From Gemmatimonadota bacterium (GTDB lineage Bacteria; Gemmatimonadota; Gemmatimonadetes; Gemmatimonadales; Gemmatimonadaceae), in the NCBI GenBank assembly GCA_028287235.1, contig JAQBQB010000015.1, positions 1 through 37,215 on the forward strand: a DNA stretch of 37,215 nucleotides, read 5' to 3'. The notes under the pieces were generated by a model. It was not told where the DNA came from. It did not search any database and saw nothing but the letters and a program-made list of their open reading frames with translations. The position numbers and the translations under genes are program-made. Below are positions 2,804 through 11,872 of the stretch, piece by piece. Numbering within the stretch: position 1 is the first letter of the stretch; each line of letters begins with the position of its first letter.

Positions 2804-4699
2804 ATGCGACGTGTGCTCCTGATGGTCGGCCTCGGCCTGCTGGCCGGGGCCGTTTTGCACCGGCCGCTGCAGGCGCAGGTGCGCGACACCATTCCCAAGC
2901 GGCGCGACACGACGATCGTCGTTCCGATCCCGCCGCACGCCGACTCGCTGCTGCGCGACACGCTGGCCAAGCGCGACTCGTTGAAGAAGTCCGTCGTGAA
3001 GCCCGACAGCATCAAGGCGCCGCTTGCGCACGCCGAGACGCCACCGGAGCTGAGCATCGGACGCCGGCTGTACTGGAGCCGCGATTCGTTGTTCGCGACG
3101 GGCGCGCTCACGGTGGCCGATCTGCTCGAGCGGGTCACGGGTATCACGACGCTGCACGCCGGCTGGCTCTCCGCTCCGGCGAACGCCGCCTACCTGGGCG
3201 ACGTGCACCGCGTGCGCGTGTTCTACGACGGCGTCGCGCTCGACGCGCTCGATCCGCGCGGCCAGGACGTGCTCGACCTCACCCAGATCAACCTCTGGGC
3301 CGCCGAAGACGCGATGATCGAGCAGGGCCCGGAGGAGATCCGCGTCTATCTCCGGAGCTGGCGCGTGCGCAACACCGATCCGTACACGCGCACGGACATC
3401 GGGACGGGCGACCAGCAGACCAACCTGTATCGCGGCTTCTTCGGCCGGCGCTTCGACAATGGCGCGGCACTGCAGTTCGGCGCGCAGCAGTATGGAACCA
3501 CTCCGCCCTCGATCTTCGGCGCGAGCAGCGACCAGCTCGCGTTGATCGCTCGTGTGGGCTGGGCGAAGAAGGACTGGAGCGTCGACGCGCACATCTCGCG
3601 TATCGGGCGACATCGCGGCAGCATCTTCGGCGACAACCCGAGCGACTCGATCCCCGCCGACTCGTCGACGCGGAACGACGCGTACTTCCGCGTCGGCTTC
3701 CGCGACCCGGACACGAGCCGGGTGTGGTGGCAGGCCATGGCGGTGGCGTCGAGCTACTCGTACACCGGCATTCGGACGCTCGTCATCACCGACCCGAAGA
3801 CCGCCGCCGACTCGGCGCTCGTCAACGCTTCGCTCGACACGAACACCTTTCAGTCGCAGTACATCCTGACCGGCGGCACCGTGCGCGGACCGCTTCGCGT
3901 CAGCGCCACCGAGCGGCTGTTCGGCCGGGGAGGACGACATCTCTCCACGCCGTCGCTGCGCGCGAGCTACACGCTCGACCGGCTCGCCATCTCGGCGTTC
4001 GTGGAAGGCAAAAGCTCCGACTCGATCGCGCGCAGCGACGTTACCGCGCGCTTTTCGCCGCTGCCTTTCATCTCGCTGCTCGGCGCGGTGGGACGGACGT
4101 CGGCCACACGCGTCAAGGACAGCAGCTTCACCTCGAGCTACGTGCGCGCCGAAGCAGGAATACGCCTGCGCGATCTCTGGCTCATCGGCGGGTTGATTCG
4201 GCGCGACAGCGTGAGACTGTCGCCGCCGCACGTCTTCGACACGACGTTCGCCGCCGCGTACGAGCCGGCGGCAACGGGCCTGACGCTGGCGGTTCGCGGA
4301 CGCCTGTGGCGGCTGTTGCACGCCGACGCATCGGCCGTGCGCTGGAACGACTCGACGGGATTCTATCGGCCGCGCTACCAGACGCGAACCGAGTTGTACG
4401 CGAAGACCAACCTGCTCAACAAAATCCCGTCGGGAAATCTCGGCCTGCTGGGATCGGTGGTCCACGAATATCGATCGAGCGTCAACTTTTCCGCGGTCTC
4501 GGGCGATCCGGCGGTGGCGAGCGTGCTCCGCGTTCCCGGCTACCGCACGATCTCGACGCTCATCGAGATCCGCATTCTGAGCGCCACGATCAGCTGGCAG
4601 TTCCGGAACATCCTCGGCGAGCGCTACTCGCAGGTTCCGACGTTCATCATGCCGCGGCAGACGAACTTCTACGGCGTGCGATGGGAGTTCTTTAATTGA
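2804..4699 (+). CDS. TonB-plug-domain outer-membrane protein, function unknown
   Basis: A 631-residue exported protein. The ATG at 2804 was chosen because it begins a clean signal peptide: basic MRR, a hydrophobic core over residues 4-18, and an LQA-Q cleavage site near residue 24. A 45-residue linker rich in Asp, Arg, Thr and Lys follows. A TonB-plug-like segment comes next (about 85-190, including VADLLERVTGITTL), and then a long region of alternating polar/aromatic strands ending in RWEFFN, typical of an outer-membrane beta-barrel signal. No clear TonB box is visible and the plug is short, so active transport is not assured. The substrate is unknown. Such Arg/Asp/Thr-rich linkers recur in Gemmatimonadota envelope proteins as I know them, which supports the taxonomic guess. 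Confidence 0.7.
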   Translation: MRRVLLMVGLGLLAGAVLHRPLQAQVRDTIPKRRDTTIVVPIPPHADSLLRDTLAKRDSLKKSVVKPDSIKAPLAHAETPPELSIGRRLYWSRDSLFATGALTVADLLERVTGITTLHAGWLSAPANAAYLGDVHRVRVFYDGVALDALDPRGQDVLDLTQINLWAAEDAMIEQGPEEIRVYLRSWRVRNTDPYTRTDIGTGDQQTNLYRGFFGRRFDNGAALQFGAQQYGTTPPSIFGASSDQLALIARVGWAKKDWSVDAHISRIGRHRGSIFGDNPSDSIPADSSTRNDAYFRVGFRDPDTSRVWWQAMAVASSYSYTGIRTLVITDPKTAADSALVNASLDTNTFQSQYILTGGTVRGPLRVSATERLFGRGGRHLSTPSLRASYTLDRLAISAFVEGKSSDSIARSDVTARFSPLPFISLLGAVGRTSATRVKDSSFTSSYVRAEAGIRLRDLWLIGGLIRRDSVRLSPPHVFDTTFAAAYEPAATGLTLAVRGRLWRLLHADASAVRWNDSTGFYRPRYQTRTELYAKTNLLNKIPSGNLGLLGSVVHEYRSSVNFSAVSGDPAVASVLRVPGYRTISTLIEIRILSATISWQFRNILGERYSQVPTFIMPRQTNFYGVRWEFFN

Positions 4700-4748
4700 A
4701 TGTCGTGCCTGTCGGCTCGAGCATACGTTGCGGGAAAGCAGATTCTTC

Positions 4749-4793
4749 GCCTTCGGCTCAGAATGACAACGAGCCTTCGGCTCAGAATGACAA
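4749..4793. repeat. Tandem 21-base repeat of a dispersed intergenic family
   Basis: In the 110 bp gap between the TonB-like gene and yicC, a 21-base unit ending CTCAGAATGACAA occurs twice, at 4749-4769 and 4773-4793, with a 3-base spacer (CGA). Upstream, GATTCTTCGC at 4741 continues the pattern of the AGATTCTTCG...TCAGAATGACA extragenic repeats seen in several bacterial phyla. A diverged relative is at 22148-22178. The rest of this gap shows nothing else. Confidence 0.75.
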
Positions 4794-4809
4794 TCACTGG
4801 AAATAGCGC

Positions 4810-5682
4810 ATGATCAAAAGCATGACCGGCTTCGGCTCGGCCGACGGAGAGGTTGGTGGCGCGCAGGTCTCGGTCGAGATCCGCTCGGTCAACCATCGCT
4901 ACTTCAACCCGTCGCTCAAGCTGCCCAGTGAGTTGAGCCGCTGGGAAGCCGAGGTGCGCGAAGCGCTGCGGAAGGGAATCGCGCGCGGCCACGTCACGCT
5001 CGTCGCGCGCGTCGAGCGCAAGGAGCTCGAAGGCGGACGGATCGACGAAGAGCGCTTCGCGGCGTACGTGGACCAGTTGCGGCGCCTCCAGGAGAAACAT
5101 GGACTGGGCGCCACCGTCGACGTCGGCGCGGTGCTCCGCATGCCGAACATCATCGCCACCACGGACGAGGAGGCGAGCGGCAGCGCGCCGGAGCTCGTCG
5201 CGATCGTCGACGCCGCCGTGCGCGCACTCGACCAGATGCGCTCCGCCGAGGGCGCACGCCTGGCGCAGTATCTGAGCGACAGGCTGGCGATCATCGAGCA
5301 AGCGGTGAACCGCATCGGCGAGCGCGCTCCGGGGCGGCTCGTCGAGCAGCGCGACCGGATGCGCACCGCGATCCGCGAGCTCGCCGACGGCGTGGCCATC
5401 GACGAGACGCGGCTCGCGCAGGAAGTCGCCATTCTCGCCGACCGCCTGGACGTCGCCGAAGAGATCAGCCGCTTCCACTCGCACTTCGCCGCGTTCCGGT
5501 CGACCATGGCGTCGCCGTCGGCCGATGGCGTGGGGAAGCGACTCGGGTTTCTGCTCCAGGAGCTGCTCCGCGAGGCGAACACCACGGGCAGCAAGGCGAA
5601 CGACGCCGCGATCCTCCAGGACGTGATCCTGATCAAGGAGGAGCTCGAGCGGATCCGCGAGCAGGTGGAGAACCTCGAGTGA
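4810..5682 (+). CDS. yicC: YicC/YloC-family endoribonuclease
   Basis: A 290-residue member of the YicC/YloC family, whose E. coli and B. subtilis members have been shown to be RNA-cleaving enzymes. The opening MIKSMTGFG and the following EIRSVNHRYF (about 25-38) are the family signature in the YicC-like N-terminal domain. The C-terminal DUF1732-type domain contains the conserved HFAAFR and GRKLDFLLQE-type segment (here GKRLGFLLQELLRE, about 238-251). The order yicC-gmk-rpoZ-coaBC is conserved in many bacteria. The stop overlaps the GTG start of gmk by 4 bases, so translation is probably coupled. Confidence 0.93.
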   Translation: MIKSMTGFGSADGEVGGAQVSVEIRSVNHRYFNPSLKLPSELSRWEAEVREALRKGIARGHVTLVARVERKELEGGRIDEERFAAYVDQLRRLQEKHGLGATVDVGAVLRMPNIIATTDEEASGSAPELVAIVDAAVRALDQMRSAEGARLAQYLSDRLAIIEQAVNRIGERAPGRLVEQRDRMRTAIRELADGVAIDETRLAQEVAILADRLDVAEEISRFHSHFAAFRSTMASPSADGVGKRLGFLLQELLREANTTGSKANDAAILQDVILIKEELERIREQVENLE

Positions 5683-7760: not shown

Positions 7761-8766
7761 AGATCAGTTACGGCGGTACCTCGAGCAGCGGCGCGAGATG
7801 GGCGAGTCGGAGCTGGTGCTCGACTCGCTCACCGTCGACGACGCGCTGCGCCTCCTCGGCGCGAAGAGCTTCGGTGGCCTGGCGCCTGCGACTGCGCCCG
7901 CCCAGGCGCGCGTCGAGGCGCGCGTCGATGTGCATCCGCCCGAGCGGATCTCGGAGAGCGCAGCCCCAGCAGCCCCCGCGGACCAAATGGGAGGAAGCGG
8001 CGACTGGCGCGAAGCGTTACGCGCGACCGGTGCGTCGCCCGGTGAGATGGCGAAAAAGAAAGTCGGACGATTTGAGTTTCCGGCGGACACGTCCGCGGCG
8101 AGCGAGCCTGTCGGTGGCACCCCCGCCGGATTGTCGGCCGGCACCGCCGTTGGCGGCTCGACGTCGAACATGGCGCCGACCAGCGGGCTGTGTGCGTCGC
8201 TCAACTCGCTCGAGGAGATCGCCGCCCACGTCGCGAGCTGCACGCGCTGCCCGCTGTACGCCACGGCGACGAACCCGGTGCCGGGCGAAGGCAATCCCAA
8301 CGCGGACTTGATGTGCGTGGGCGAGGCGCCAGGCGCGACAGAGGACGAGACGGGCCGTCCATTCATCGGCGCCGCCGGCCAGCTCCTCACAAAGATTCTC
8401 GAGGCGATCAAGTTGTCGCGCGACGAGGTCTACATCTGCAACGTGCTCAAGCACCGGCCGCCGGGTAACCGGAATCCGCTGCCGGAAGAGGTGACGGCGT
8501 GCAGTCCGTACCTCATTCGGCAAATTGAGCTTGTCAAGCCGAAAGTCATTATTGCATTGGGGACATTTGCGGCGCAGACTCTCTTAAATTCCCAACTCTC
8601 CTTGGGGAAGCTCCGTGGCCAGATCCACCGGTATCACGGCGTGCCGCTGATCGTCACGTACCACCCCGCTGCGCTTCTGCGCAATCCATCCTGGAAGCGC
8701 CCGACTTGGGAAGATGTCCAGCTCGCCCGTCGAATACTCGATAGCGCCACAATCCCTGGCGCGTGA
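7747..8766 (+). CDS. Family 4 uracil-DNA glycosylase, 4Fe-4S type, with long N-terminal extension
   Basis: Removes uracil from DNA in base-excision repair. The catalytic domain (about 155-335) shows the family 4 pattern: cluster cysteines C165 and C168 in CTRCPLY, motif GEAPGATED (192-200), GRPFIGAAGQLL, cysteines in YICN and TACS for the rest of the 4Fe-4S cluster, and the HPAALLR motif with H306. About 150 residues precede it: a helical opening with LRRYLEQRREMGESEL and an Ala/Pro-rich stretch, making 339 residues where compact members have about 200. The TTG at 7747 overlaps coaBC; the ATG at 7798 is an alternative. The 3' end overlaps dnaB by 53 bases. Confidence 0.92.
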   Translation: MADARDQLRRYLEQRREMGESELVLDSLTVDDALRLLGAKSFGGLAPATAPAQARVEARVDVHPPERISESAAPAAPADQMGGSGDWREALRATGASPGEMAKKKVGRFEFPADTSAASEPVGGTPAGLSAGTAVGGSTSNMAPTSGLCASLNSLEEIAAHVASCTRCPLYATATNPVPGEGNPNADLMCVGEAPGATEDETGRPFIGAAGQLLTKILEAIKLSRDEVYICNVLKHRPPGNRNPLPEEVTACSPYLIRQIELVKPKVIIALGTFAAQTLLNSQLSLGKLRGQIHRYHGVPLIVTYHPAALLRNPSWKRPTWEDVQLARRILDSATIPGA

Positions 8767-10120
8767 TCCCTACCGCGATCGGCGTCCTCCCTACTCGGAG
8801 GACGCCGAGCAAGCGGTGTTGTCGGCAATGTTGATCGACCAAGACGCGGTGCTCCGCGCGGCCGAACACGTCAACGACACGATGTTCTATGCCGAACGCC
8901 ATCGCCGGATTTACCGCGCGATGATGACGATCACGGAGCGCGGCGGTGTCGTCGATCCGCTCACGCTCTCCGAGGAGCTCAGCCGGCGCGGCGAGCTCGA
9001 CGCGTCGGGCGGCAAGGACTTCATCGGCTTCCTCGTCGACGCGGTGCCGACGGCGGCCAACATCGAGTATCACGCGCAGATCGTGCGCGAGAAGGCGATC
9101 CTCCGCCGGCTCATCGAAGTCTCGACGACCATCGTCGCCGAGGCGTTCGAGGGAAAGAGCACCGCCAACGAGCTGCTGGATGAAGCCGAGTCGAAGATCT
9201 TCCAGGTCAGCCAGCAGCAGACCAAGGACGGCTTCACGCGCATCAAGGAGCTGCTCTGGCCCACGATGGAGCGCATTGAAGCGCTGCAGCGCGGCGGGCA
9301 GACGATCACCGGCGTCGCGACCGGCTTCAAGGATCTCGACGAGATGACGTCGGGCTTCCAGCCGGCGGATCTCATCATCGTGGCGGCTCGACCGTCGATG
9401 GGGAAAACGGCGTTCACGCTGAACATCGCGCAACACGCGGCCATCGAGCACAATGTTCCGGTTGCGTTCTTCTCGCTGGAAATGAGTAAAGAGTCGCTCG
9501 TGCAACGCATGCTCACCTCCGAGGCGCGCATCGACGCGCAGCGACTTCGCAAAGGCATGCTGCGGGACGACGACTTCCCGCGGCTCGCCCGCGCCGCCGG
9601 CATCCTCAGCTCGGCGCCGGTCTGGATCGACGACACGCCGGGCATCTCGATCCTCGAGATGCGCTCGAAGGCCCGGCGCCTGAAGGCCGACGCGGGCGTG
9701 GGAATGGTCATCGTCGACTACCTGCAACTCATGTCGGGCCCGGCGAGCTCGGAGAACCGCCAGCAGGAAGTCAGTCAGATCTCCCGCGGGCTGAAAGCGC
9801 TCGCCAAGGAGCTCAGCGTTCCGGTGGTCGCGCTGTCGCAGCTCTCGCGCGCACCTGAGCAGCGCACCGGCGACAACAAGCGTCCGCAGCTCTCCGACCT
9901 TCGTGAATCGGGGGCCATCGAGCAGGACGCCGACTTGATCATGTTCCTCTACCGCCAGGAGTTCTACGACGGCCCGGTAGACAAAGATGGCAATTCGCTC
10001 GAAGGAAAAGCCGAGGTGATCGTCGGCAAGCAGCGAAATGGTCCGATCGGCATCGTGAATCTCCATTTCCATAAGCAATACACGCGGTTCGAGAGCTTCA
10101 GTCAGAGGCCGCAGGGCTGA
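8714..10120 (+). CDS. dnaB: Replicative DNA helicase DnaB
   Basis: Hexameric 5'-3' helicase that unwinds DNA at the replication fork, loaded at oriC and contacting primase. It is 468 residues long. The N-terminal primase-interacting domain opens with PPYSEDAEQAVLSAML. The RecA-like motor has Walker A ARPSMGKT (225-232), Walker B VIVDYLQLM (from about 332) and a downstream LSQLSRAPEQR arginine-rich motif. The first ATG in frame lies 53 bases inside the glycosylase gene, and there is no other start before the conserved N-terminus, so a real overlap is the simplest reading. No intein is present. A large palindromic element follows. Confidence 0.97.
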   Translation: MSSSPVEYSIAPQSLARDPYRDRRPPYSEDAEQAVLSAMLIDQDAVLRAAEHVNDTMFYAERHRRIYRAMMTITERGGVVDPLTLSEELSRRGELDASGGKDFIGFLVDAVPTAANIEYHAQIVREKAILRRLIEVSTTIVAEAFEGKSTANELLDEAESKIFQVSQQQTKDGFTRIKELLWPTMERIEALQRGGQTITGVATGFKDLDEMTSGFQPADLIIVAARPSMGKTAFTLNIAQHAAIEHNVPVAFFSLEMSKESLVQRMLTSEARIDAQRLRKGMLRDDDFPRLARAAGILSSAPVWIDDTPGISILEMRSKARRLKADAGVGMVIVDYLQLMSGPASSENRQQEVSQISRGLKALAKELSVPVVALSQLSRAPEQRTGDNKRPQLSDLRESGAIEQDADLIMFLYRQEFYDGPVDKDGNSLEGKAEVIVGKQRNGPIGIVNLHFHKQYTRFESFSQRPQG

Positions 10121-10129
10121 GAGCTCGAT

Positions 10130-10448
10130 GGCGACGGGCCGCTCTATCGGGACGACTCCGTCATTTTGCTCACGGATGACGCGGATGACGTCGATGACGC
10201 GGAAAAATCCGGATCGCTCCGTGTGGCGAGACAGCGCCATCGCGCAGCGCCGGGATATTTTTCTAGGAACGGACGCTCGGGACGCCGCCGGTAGCATCCC
10301 CGAGCGTCGGTTCCAAAGAAAAACGTGTTCGTCCGGGCTCGTTGCGTACGGAATCGTCAATGCGCACGGAGAGATCCGGCCCTTTCCGCACCATCCGCGT
10401 CATCCGTGTGAAAATGACGGAGTCGTCCCGGTAGAGCGGCCAGTCAAG
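10130..10448. repeat. Long imperfect palindrome (MITE-like) between dnaB and radA
   Basis: This gene-free stretch of about 350 bp is almost wholly one inverted repeat. The outer arms 10137-10167 and 10411-10441 are complementary at 30 of 31 positions, and the mismatch would be a U-G pair in RNA. The complementarity continues inward more weakly: CACGGATGACGCGGATG on the left pairs with the matching part of 10388-10407, and CTCCGTG with CACGGAG. The centre is a second hairpin, 10266-10281 with 10299-10314, 16 bp with one mismatch, flanked by TTTTTCT/AGAAAAA. The left arm also holds three 9-base units GATGACG-NN near 10174-10200. No transposase or clear target duplication is seen. Confidence 0.8.
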
Positions 10449-10474: not shown

Positions 10475-11872
10475 TTGAAGACCAAGACCGTCTACCGCTG
10501 CACGGAATGCGGATCGGACTTTTCGAAATGGCAAGGCCGTTGCGACACCTGCGGCGAGTGGAACACGCTCGTCGAGGAGACGGTCGCGCCCAAGGTGAGC
10601 GTGGGCTCCGGCGGCGGTGCCGCGCGGCGCATCGGCGGCGCCCGCTCGTTGGCCGACGGTGGGAACGTCGTGGCCACGCCCAAGCTGCGCGACGTCAAAG
10701 GCTCCGACGCGAAACGCTGGAAGACCGGTCTCGACGAATTCGATTTCGTCCTCGGCGGCGGCATCGTGCCGGGCTCGATGATCCTCATCGGCGGTGAGCC
10801 GGGCATCGGCAAGTCGACGCTGCTGCTTCAGGTCGCCGCGCGCCTCGAAGCCGCCGGGTTCGCGACTCTCTACGCGTCGGGCGAAGAATCGCCGCTCCAG
10901 ATCAAGCTGCGCTCCGATCGCCTCGCGGCGAGCGCCGCCGAAGTGTCGCTGCTCAGCGAGACGAACCTCGAGACAATTCTCACGACGTCCGCGTCCGTGG
11001 CGCCATCGGTGTTGATCGTCGACTCGATTCAGACGGTGTACACGGGCGATCTCGAGGGCGCGCCCGGGAACGTGGGCCAGGTGCGCGAGTGCGCCGCGCG
11101 GCTGATGCGCTATGCGAAGGAGAGCGGCACCACGGTGTTCGTCGTCGGGCATGTGACCAAGGGCGGCGGCATCGCGGGACCGAAGACACTCGAGCACATC
11201 GTCGACACGGTGCTCTACTTCGAGGGCGAGAGCACGCTCGACCACCGCGTGCTGCGCGCGACGAAGAATCGCTTCGGCAGCGTCGACGAGATCGGCGTGT
11301 TCCGCATGTCGGAGCAGGGGCTCGAGCCGGTGGCGAATCCGTCCGAGCTGTTCATGGGCGATCGCGCGAGCCATGCGTCGGGCAGCGCGGTCACCGCGCT
11401 GCTCGAGGGCACGCGGCCGTTGCTCGTCGAGATCCAGGCGCTCGCGGCCAAGGCGGGGTTCGGGACGCCGCAGCGCGTGGCCACCGGGTTCGACGGCCGC
11501 CGCCTCGCGCTGCTGCTCGCGGTGCTCGACAAGCGCGCCGGATTGAACTTCAGCCAGCTCGACGTCTTTCTCAACGTGGTCGGCGGCATGCGGCTGCAAG
11601 AACCTGGCGGCGATCTCGCCGTCGCCGCGGCGCTCGCGTCGAGCGTCTACGATCGTGCGCTGCCGGCCGATGCGCTGTTCATCGGCGAGGTGGGCCTCGG
11701 CGGGGAAGTGCGCACCGTGTCGCAGGTCGAGCGGCGCGTCGCCGAGGCGGCGAACATGGGGATGAAGCGCGTCTACCTGGCCGAGCGCGGAGTGCCGAAG
11801 CGGAAGAGCCGCGACGTCGAGCTCGTGGGCGTGCGGACGATTCAAGATCTCTTACGCCGCATCTTCACGTGA
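10475..11872 (+). CDS. radA: DNA repair protein RadA (Sms)
   Basis: RecA-like branch-migration ATPase that promotes recombination-intermediate processing. It is 465 residues long. The N-terminal zinc finger has C9, C12, C23 and C26. Walker A is GGEPGIGKST (about 106-115), the RadA-specific KNRFGS motif is near 264-269, and the C-terminal Lon-like domain (about 285-465) holds the GGDLAVAAALASS stretch. The only start that keeps the zinc finger intact is TTG at 10475. It lacks a strong Shine-Dalgarno and sits 34 bases after the right arm of the palindromic element, so that element probably supplies the 5' leader. The gene overlaps ispD by 4 bases (GTGA). Confidence 0.96.
   Translation: MKTKTVYRCTECGSDFSKWQGRCDTCGEWNTLVEETVAPKVSVGSGGGAARRIGGARSLADGGNVVATPKLRDVKGSDAKRWKTGLDEFDFVLGGGIVPGSMILIGGEPGIGKSTLLLQVAARLEAAGFATLYASGEESPLQIKLRSDRLAASAAEVSLLSETNLETILTTSASVAPSVLIVDSIQTVYTGDLEGAPGNVGQVRECAARLMRYAKESGTTVFVVGHVTKGGGIAGPKTLEHIVDTVLYFEGESTLDHRVLRATKNRFGSVDEIGVFRMSEQGLEPVANPSELFMGDRASHASGSAVTALLEGTRPLLVEIQALAAKAGFGTPQRVATGFDGRRLALLLAVLDKRAGLNFSQLDVFLNVVGGMRLQEPGGDLAVAAALASSVYDRALPADALFIGEVGLGGEVRTVSQVERRVAEAANMGMKRVYLAERGVPKRKSRDVELVGVRTIQDLLRRIFT

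Follow-up and report, generated by a model that had tools for sequence, protein, structure and literature searches.

A palindrome between dnaB and a radA-like gene

The window analysed here is a stretch of 37,215 nucleotides from a Gemmatimonadota soil bacterium of the family Gemmatimonadaceae (assembly GCA_028287235.1, contig JAQBQB010000015.1, positions 1 to 37,215 of the forward strand), in which an earlier note had pointed out a nearly self-complementary palindrome of about 310 bp between dnaB and radA. The palindrome is real: the element measures 313 bp (10133–10445), begins 12 bp past the dnaB stop codon and ends 29 bp before the radA-like ORF. The region is laid out as follows.

8714–10120, + strand: dnaB, replicative helicase, the upstream gene (PF03796, 4.5e-113; PF00772)
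10133–10248, no strand: left arm, type A, with a GACTGGCCGCT-like end and degenerate CACGGATGA / CGCGGATGA units
10249–10352, no strand: core hairpin of about 105 bp, which also occurs within unrelated arms elsewhere in this genome and in genus mates
10353–10445, no strand: right arm, the reverse complement of the left arm
10475–11872, + strand: radA-like gene, downstream (Zn ribbon, KaiC-type ATPase, Lon-like domain)

The inverted arms 10133–10167 and 10411–10445 match at 94%, and at the outer ends 30 of 31 positions pair (10137–10167 versus 10411–10441), the sole mismatch being a T-G pair as the earlier note had claimed. Further inverted arm pairs lie at 10165–10187/10392–10414 and 10179–10223/10365–10409, and the arms of the window copy pair over nearly their entire length around the nested central hairpin that had also been described (10258–10281/10299–10322). 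When folded as RNA, the segment 10120–10460 gave −209.3 kcal/mol (z = −13.8), a stability reached by 0 of 100 dinucleotide shuffles. The window copy contains neither an ORF nor a transposase.

A modular repeat family at intergenic sites

By searching the own genome with the window copy, 80 match rows were obtained and merged by hand into 37 places, all of which were retrieved with their flanks; the palindrome is therefore multi-copy, contrary to the single-copy case that the earlier note had named as a refutation. Twenty-one of these places are near full length (297–318 bp as cut) and 16 are partial or composite. Complete copies span approximately 300–315 bp and have no gene inside. The copies are roughly 70–81% identical to the window copy, lie on many contigs and each have their own flanks, which rules out an assembly artefact. 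The family consensus ends in TYGACTGGCCGCT, and conservation extends approximately 21 bp beyond the GGGACGATTCCGTC anchor before fading. In the family search of 59 relatives, matches were found in five rows of the tally, the own genome being one of the listed rows; 7 matching places were in genus mates (G001, G004 and G005), all in or around the core, and the match in G030 was a simple repeat outside the core. As a side observation, 400 kb of the own genome (L137–L156) contained some 20 non-coding palindromes that belong to several unrelated families, most of them 3' of genes, including types with GTCATCCTGAGCG(A)AGCGAAGGATC, AGGGTATAGGGTCC and CCGTTTTCCGTATTCTG.

The core of approximately 105 bp recurs within several kinds of arms of the same genome, the arms of the window copy being designated type A. 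It was found within a related arm type with GCCATTAGGTCGGGACGATCGCC ends (L031, L033, L035 and L036), within type C arms of GGCACGGACA units (L038, L041, L042 and L043), and, in genus mates, within arms of CGCAGAGG, CGCGGAATC or GCGGACT units; a similar core also occupies the L059 dnaB-radA gap, where it is enclosed by a further pair of arms. At L040 the reverse is seen: the type A arms lack the core and enclose an ORF of about 150 aa. The element is thus made of swappable modules, namely outer arms of short degenerate repeats and a core hairpin.

Empty sites, which the earlier note had proposed to look for, were found at three loci in members of the same genus or family. At the dnaB-radA site, the gap is only 12 bp in L058, whose DnaB is 90.6% identical to that of the window, and gaps of 5–17 bp were seen in 36 of the 75 loci counted, L058 among them. 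At the L015 site, the own genome (G000) has a type A palindrome, G005 has a gene of the GxxExxY family described below between CACGG-type arms (PF13366 match, C37:95356–95688), G002 has a GGAACGCT palindrome that is unrelated, and the insert is lacking in G003 and G004, whose stretches here measure 125 and 139 bp. At the L019 site, the element is present in G000 and missing from G001, G003 and G005, and G004 has another repeat. Since the insert is missing at homologous sites in relatives, it behaves like an insertion.

All scored copies lie between predicted protein genes. The gaps of the 35 scored copies, which leave out L040 and the L044 remnant, were 19 tandem, 15 convergent and 1 divergent versus a background of 127, 23 and 48, respectively, indicating depletion of divergent gaps (Fisher test, p = 0.0027) and enrichment of convergent ones (p = 3.7e-5). 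The median distance from a copy to the nearest stop codon was 28.5 bp, and 24 of the 34 copies with a neighbouring stop codon were within 50 bp of it. Flanking direct repeats were not in excess at any offset in the 18 copies whose ends could be read, and hence no target-site duplication was found (offsets 10–35, lengths 2–9; the best z, 2.8 of 182 combinations, was taken as noise).

In other Gemmatimonadota the dnaB-radA gap also holds palindromes, with different arms, six seen by scan (L059, L060, L067, L100, L105 and L118) and L061 by eye. We considered dnaB-radA as a special hot spot and rejected it, because 36 of the 75 gaps counted are only 5–17 bp long and other intergenic sites behave alike. 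The closest relative by DnaB (L057) has a dnaB-radA gap of 918 bp with an apparent reverse-strand gene (4080–4990) and no palindrome.

GxxExxY genes and their flanking inverted repeats

The ORF between the type A arms (L040/L158) matched PDDEXK_3 (PF13366, 4.7e-33) and TIGR04256 GxxExxY (7.2e-31), of the PD-(D/E)XK nuclease family. In this locus (L040:1977–2526) the element arms double as coding sequence, with candidate start codons in GGATGA-like units of the left arm and the last codons and the stop in the right arm. Four GxxExxY genes are present in the own genome, and their flanks, compared by aligning the left flank with the right flank in reverse complement, had inverted-repeat scores of 29, 32, 19 and 15 for L157, L158, L159 and L160 (p = 0.005, 0.005, 0.005 and 0.020, respectively), versus 10–12 for shuffles. 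The arms of L157 recur at 9 further places in the genome, and the three that were read (L038, L041 and L043) are all gene-less around the same core. The core is absent from the gene-bearing elements L157 and L158, so that core and GxxExxY gene may be alternative passengers.

The same arrangement was then found across the family, PF13366 being present in 42 of the 59 Gemmatimonadaceae genomes searched. The flank test was applied to 30 unselected loci (33 less 3 truncated ones; all four genes of the own genome and, for other genomes, mostly the best match) and to 354 control genes of 90–260 aa, called by an in-house codon model in RadA neighbourhoods and the 400 kb of the own genome. Scores of at least 25 were obtained for 16 of 30 GxxExxY loci versus 0 of 354 controls, and scores of at least 20 for 17 of 30 versus 16 of 354 (Mann-Whitney, p = 3e-10), a comparison in which the controls may lie in more conserved regions than the GxxExxY genes. 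Seventeen of the 30 loci also exceeded the 99th percentile set by the flanks of other GxxExxY loci; scores below 25 were seen at 14 of 30 and below 18 at 10 of 30. Layouts and shuffles refer to 24 chosen loci, mostly high scorers, in which the gene lies either in the loop of a single palindrome (L157, L158, L164, L177, L178, L180, L183 and L184) or between two palindromes (L165, L170, L171, L179 and L186).

G020 has a different palindrome at 40 places (78 rows, counted by hand), two of which flank a GxxExxY gene, and most of its copies are far from any such gene. In G069, the arms beside GxxExxY have few further copies. G065 has eight PF13366 matches, most of them fragmentary, as if its GxxExxY genes were decaying. 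The PD-(D/E)XK residues D77, E87, K89 and Q101 are invariant in 21 GxxExxY proteins from five phyla, a comparison made on plus-strand loci. We take RecB, Cas4 and Hjc to be fold relatives of this nuclease. Three scans of viral contigs found no GxxExxY relative, and solved structures gave no credible sequence match. In a literature search that had subscription papers outside its scope, the accessible parts of the sources yielded no link of GxxExxY to palindromes or mobility, and no mention of PDDEXK_3 or of six arm-like strings was found.

A second kind of gene shares this setting. PF05635, the four-helix-bundle 23S rRNA IVS protein, was found in 47 of 59 Gemmatimonadaceae genomes, and flank scores of at least 25 were obtained for 15 of 25 loci (30 minus 5 truncated, mostly the best match per genome). 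The PF05635 genes (L219–L248) lie between inverted arrays of 7-nt units, and six such genes are present in the own genome. The period of 7 in their arms gives identities that average 0.56 at lag 7 and 0.55 at lag 14, and the GxxExxY arms show only weak periods of 8–11.

Proposed mobility of the element and its relation to known systems

The family is multi-copy and intergenic, lies by stop codons and is absent from homologous sites in relatives; at one locus of this genome with these arms a GxxExxY gene replaces the core, and such genes are enriched between inverted repeats family-wide. From this we consider that the palindrome is probably the gene-less, MITE-like version of a mobile palindromic element that encodes GxxExxY in its gene-bearing form. 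We further infer that the GxxExxY nuclease moves the element. It would recognise the arms, perhaps as a cruciform or single-stranded hairpin, and cut, and repair would then copy the element into 3' intergenic sites; gene-less copies would be moved in trans by the same nuclease, and copying via a hairpin would render both arms identical, after which all arms would decay independently.

Like bacterial MITEs, the element is short, gene-less and multi-copy, has terminal inverted repeats and is absent from homologous sites; unlike them, it is palindromic as a whole, and neither a target-site duplication nor a transposase with matching ends was found. Its ends are instead shared with a locus encoding GxxExxY, which is no known transposase. 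If the nuclease does move the palindromes, they would represent mobile DNA needing neither a DDE nor an HUH transposase, and GxxExxY, a nuclease-like family of so far unassigned role, would gain a testable one.

Alternatively, the palindromes could be mobilised or copied by other machinery of the host or of other elements, with GxxExxY, the IVS protein and the core as mere passengers in the hairpin loop. The three loop contents are indeed unrelated, PF05635 being the third to lie between strong inverted repeats, and the loop ORF of the Coxiella IVS looks dispensable according to the available part of PMC4990558. We nevertheless regard this explanation as less likely, because the nuclease residues of GxxExxY are intact across five phyla, unlike those of a dispensable passenger, and because one gene-bearing locus exists for each of two arm types in the same genome.

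Much less probable is a structured RNA, transcription terminator or 3' UTR element kept by selection on the transcript, even though the fold is very stable and the copies adjoin stop codons. The earlier note had taken the U-G mismatch as a hint of such selection, and this was not supported: on the sense strand of 13 copies between co-directional genes, G.T and A.C mismatches were equally frequent (96 versus 93, p = 0.88). Over their full length the arms showed no co-evolution, their identity being 81.7% within the same copy and 81.2% between different copies (4061 of 10000 permutations reached the observed sum), although at 68 conserved consensus pairs a weak contrary sign was seen, own arms pairing slightly better than swapped ones (95.4% versus 93.9%, sd 0.2%). 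No Rfam family matches the palindrome, and the empty site in relatives also speaks against such an RNA. Of the two possibilities that had been raised, the transposase-free mobile repeat is thus supported by the 37 places, the empty sites and the lack of a transposase inside, and the structured RNA is unsupported. That two arms are not more similar for belonging to the same copy would fit a burst that started from a near-perfect palindrome, with all arms decaying independently afterwards.

A REP/BIME or TIRtron that relies on a RAYT/TIRYT-type Y1 (HUH) transposase can practically be dismissed, since the 100%-complete genome gave 0 matches to Y1_Tnp (PF01797) in a search that was positive in 5 of 14 controls, and since the gene between the arms is of another kind. 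As far as the available text of Di Nocera et al. 2013 (PMC3733652) describes them, TIRtrons and REPtrons resemble our element in having a small gene between palindromic or inverted repeats, gene-less spread of these repeats and a preference for gene 3' ends, and differ in encoding a Y1 HUH transposase instead of a PD-(D/E)XK protein (GxxExxY) and in having palindromes of 20–40 bp versus about 310 bp here.

For the element proposed to be moved by a nuclease, an architectural parallel is offered by the 23S rRNA IVS. In the accessible part of PMC4990558, the Coxiella IVS is called a selfish element; its terminal inverted repeats form a 28-bp stem, its loop holds an S23p ORF, and it contains GACAGAT heptamers. 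Both systems would combine a terminal inverted-repeat stem, short tandem arm units and, in the gene-bearing form of our element, one small loop ORF, and the IVS-protein family of Gemmatimonadaceae also has period-7 arms. The differences are that the window copy lies between the protein genes dnaB and radA rather than in helix 25 or 45 of 23S rRNA, that it has the stem and lacks the ORF, a GxxExxY ORF being present in the related L040/L158, and that its arm class goes with GxxExxY and not with S23p. The parallel between the Gemmatimonadaceae palindromic elements and the Coxiella IVS, drawn from such comparisons, may be one of architecture.

Tentatively, GxxExxY proteins could be the nucleases that mobilise a widespread and so far undescribed class of bacterial elements, characterized by large palindromes, arms of short repeats, insertion just after stop codons, a nuclease gene in the loop and gene-less palindromes spreading in trans, with an architecture shared with the 23S rRNA IVS, which might form one of its branches. 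Such a class would be a possible source for many unexplained intergenic palindromes and would link them architecturally to rRNA intervening sequences.

Outside the phylum, GxxExxY occurs on plasmid records of four other phyla, and the flanks were read on seven such records. Inverted repeats surround the gene in Bacteroides finegoldii and Bernardetia (p = 0.003) and in Sphingomonas and Prevotella (p = 0.005; in Prevotella at 350 bp, not at 100 bp). In Treponema the signal was marginal, with p = 0.037 for flanks of 100 bp and 0.37 for 350 bp. Persicobacter reached p = 0.055 at 350 bp and had no signal at 100 bp, and no inverted repeats were seen around GxxExxY in the Fusobacteria record. In Sphingomonas parapaucimobilis the GxxExxY unit lies between fabD and fabG, and S. 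paeninsulae has both genes without the unit.
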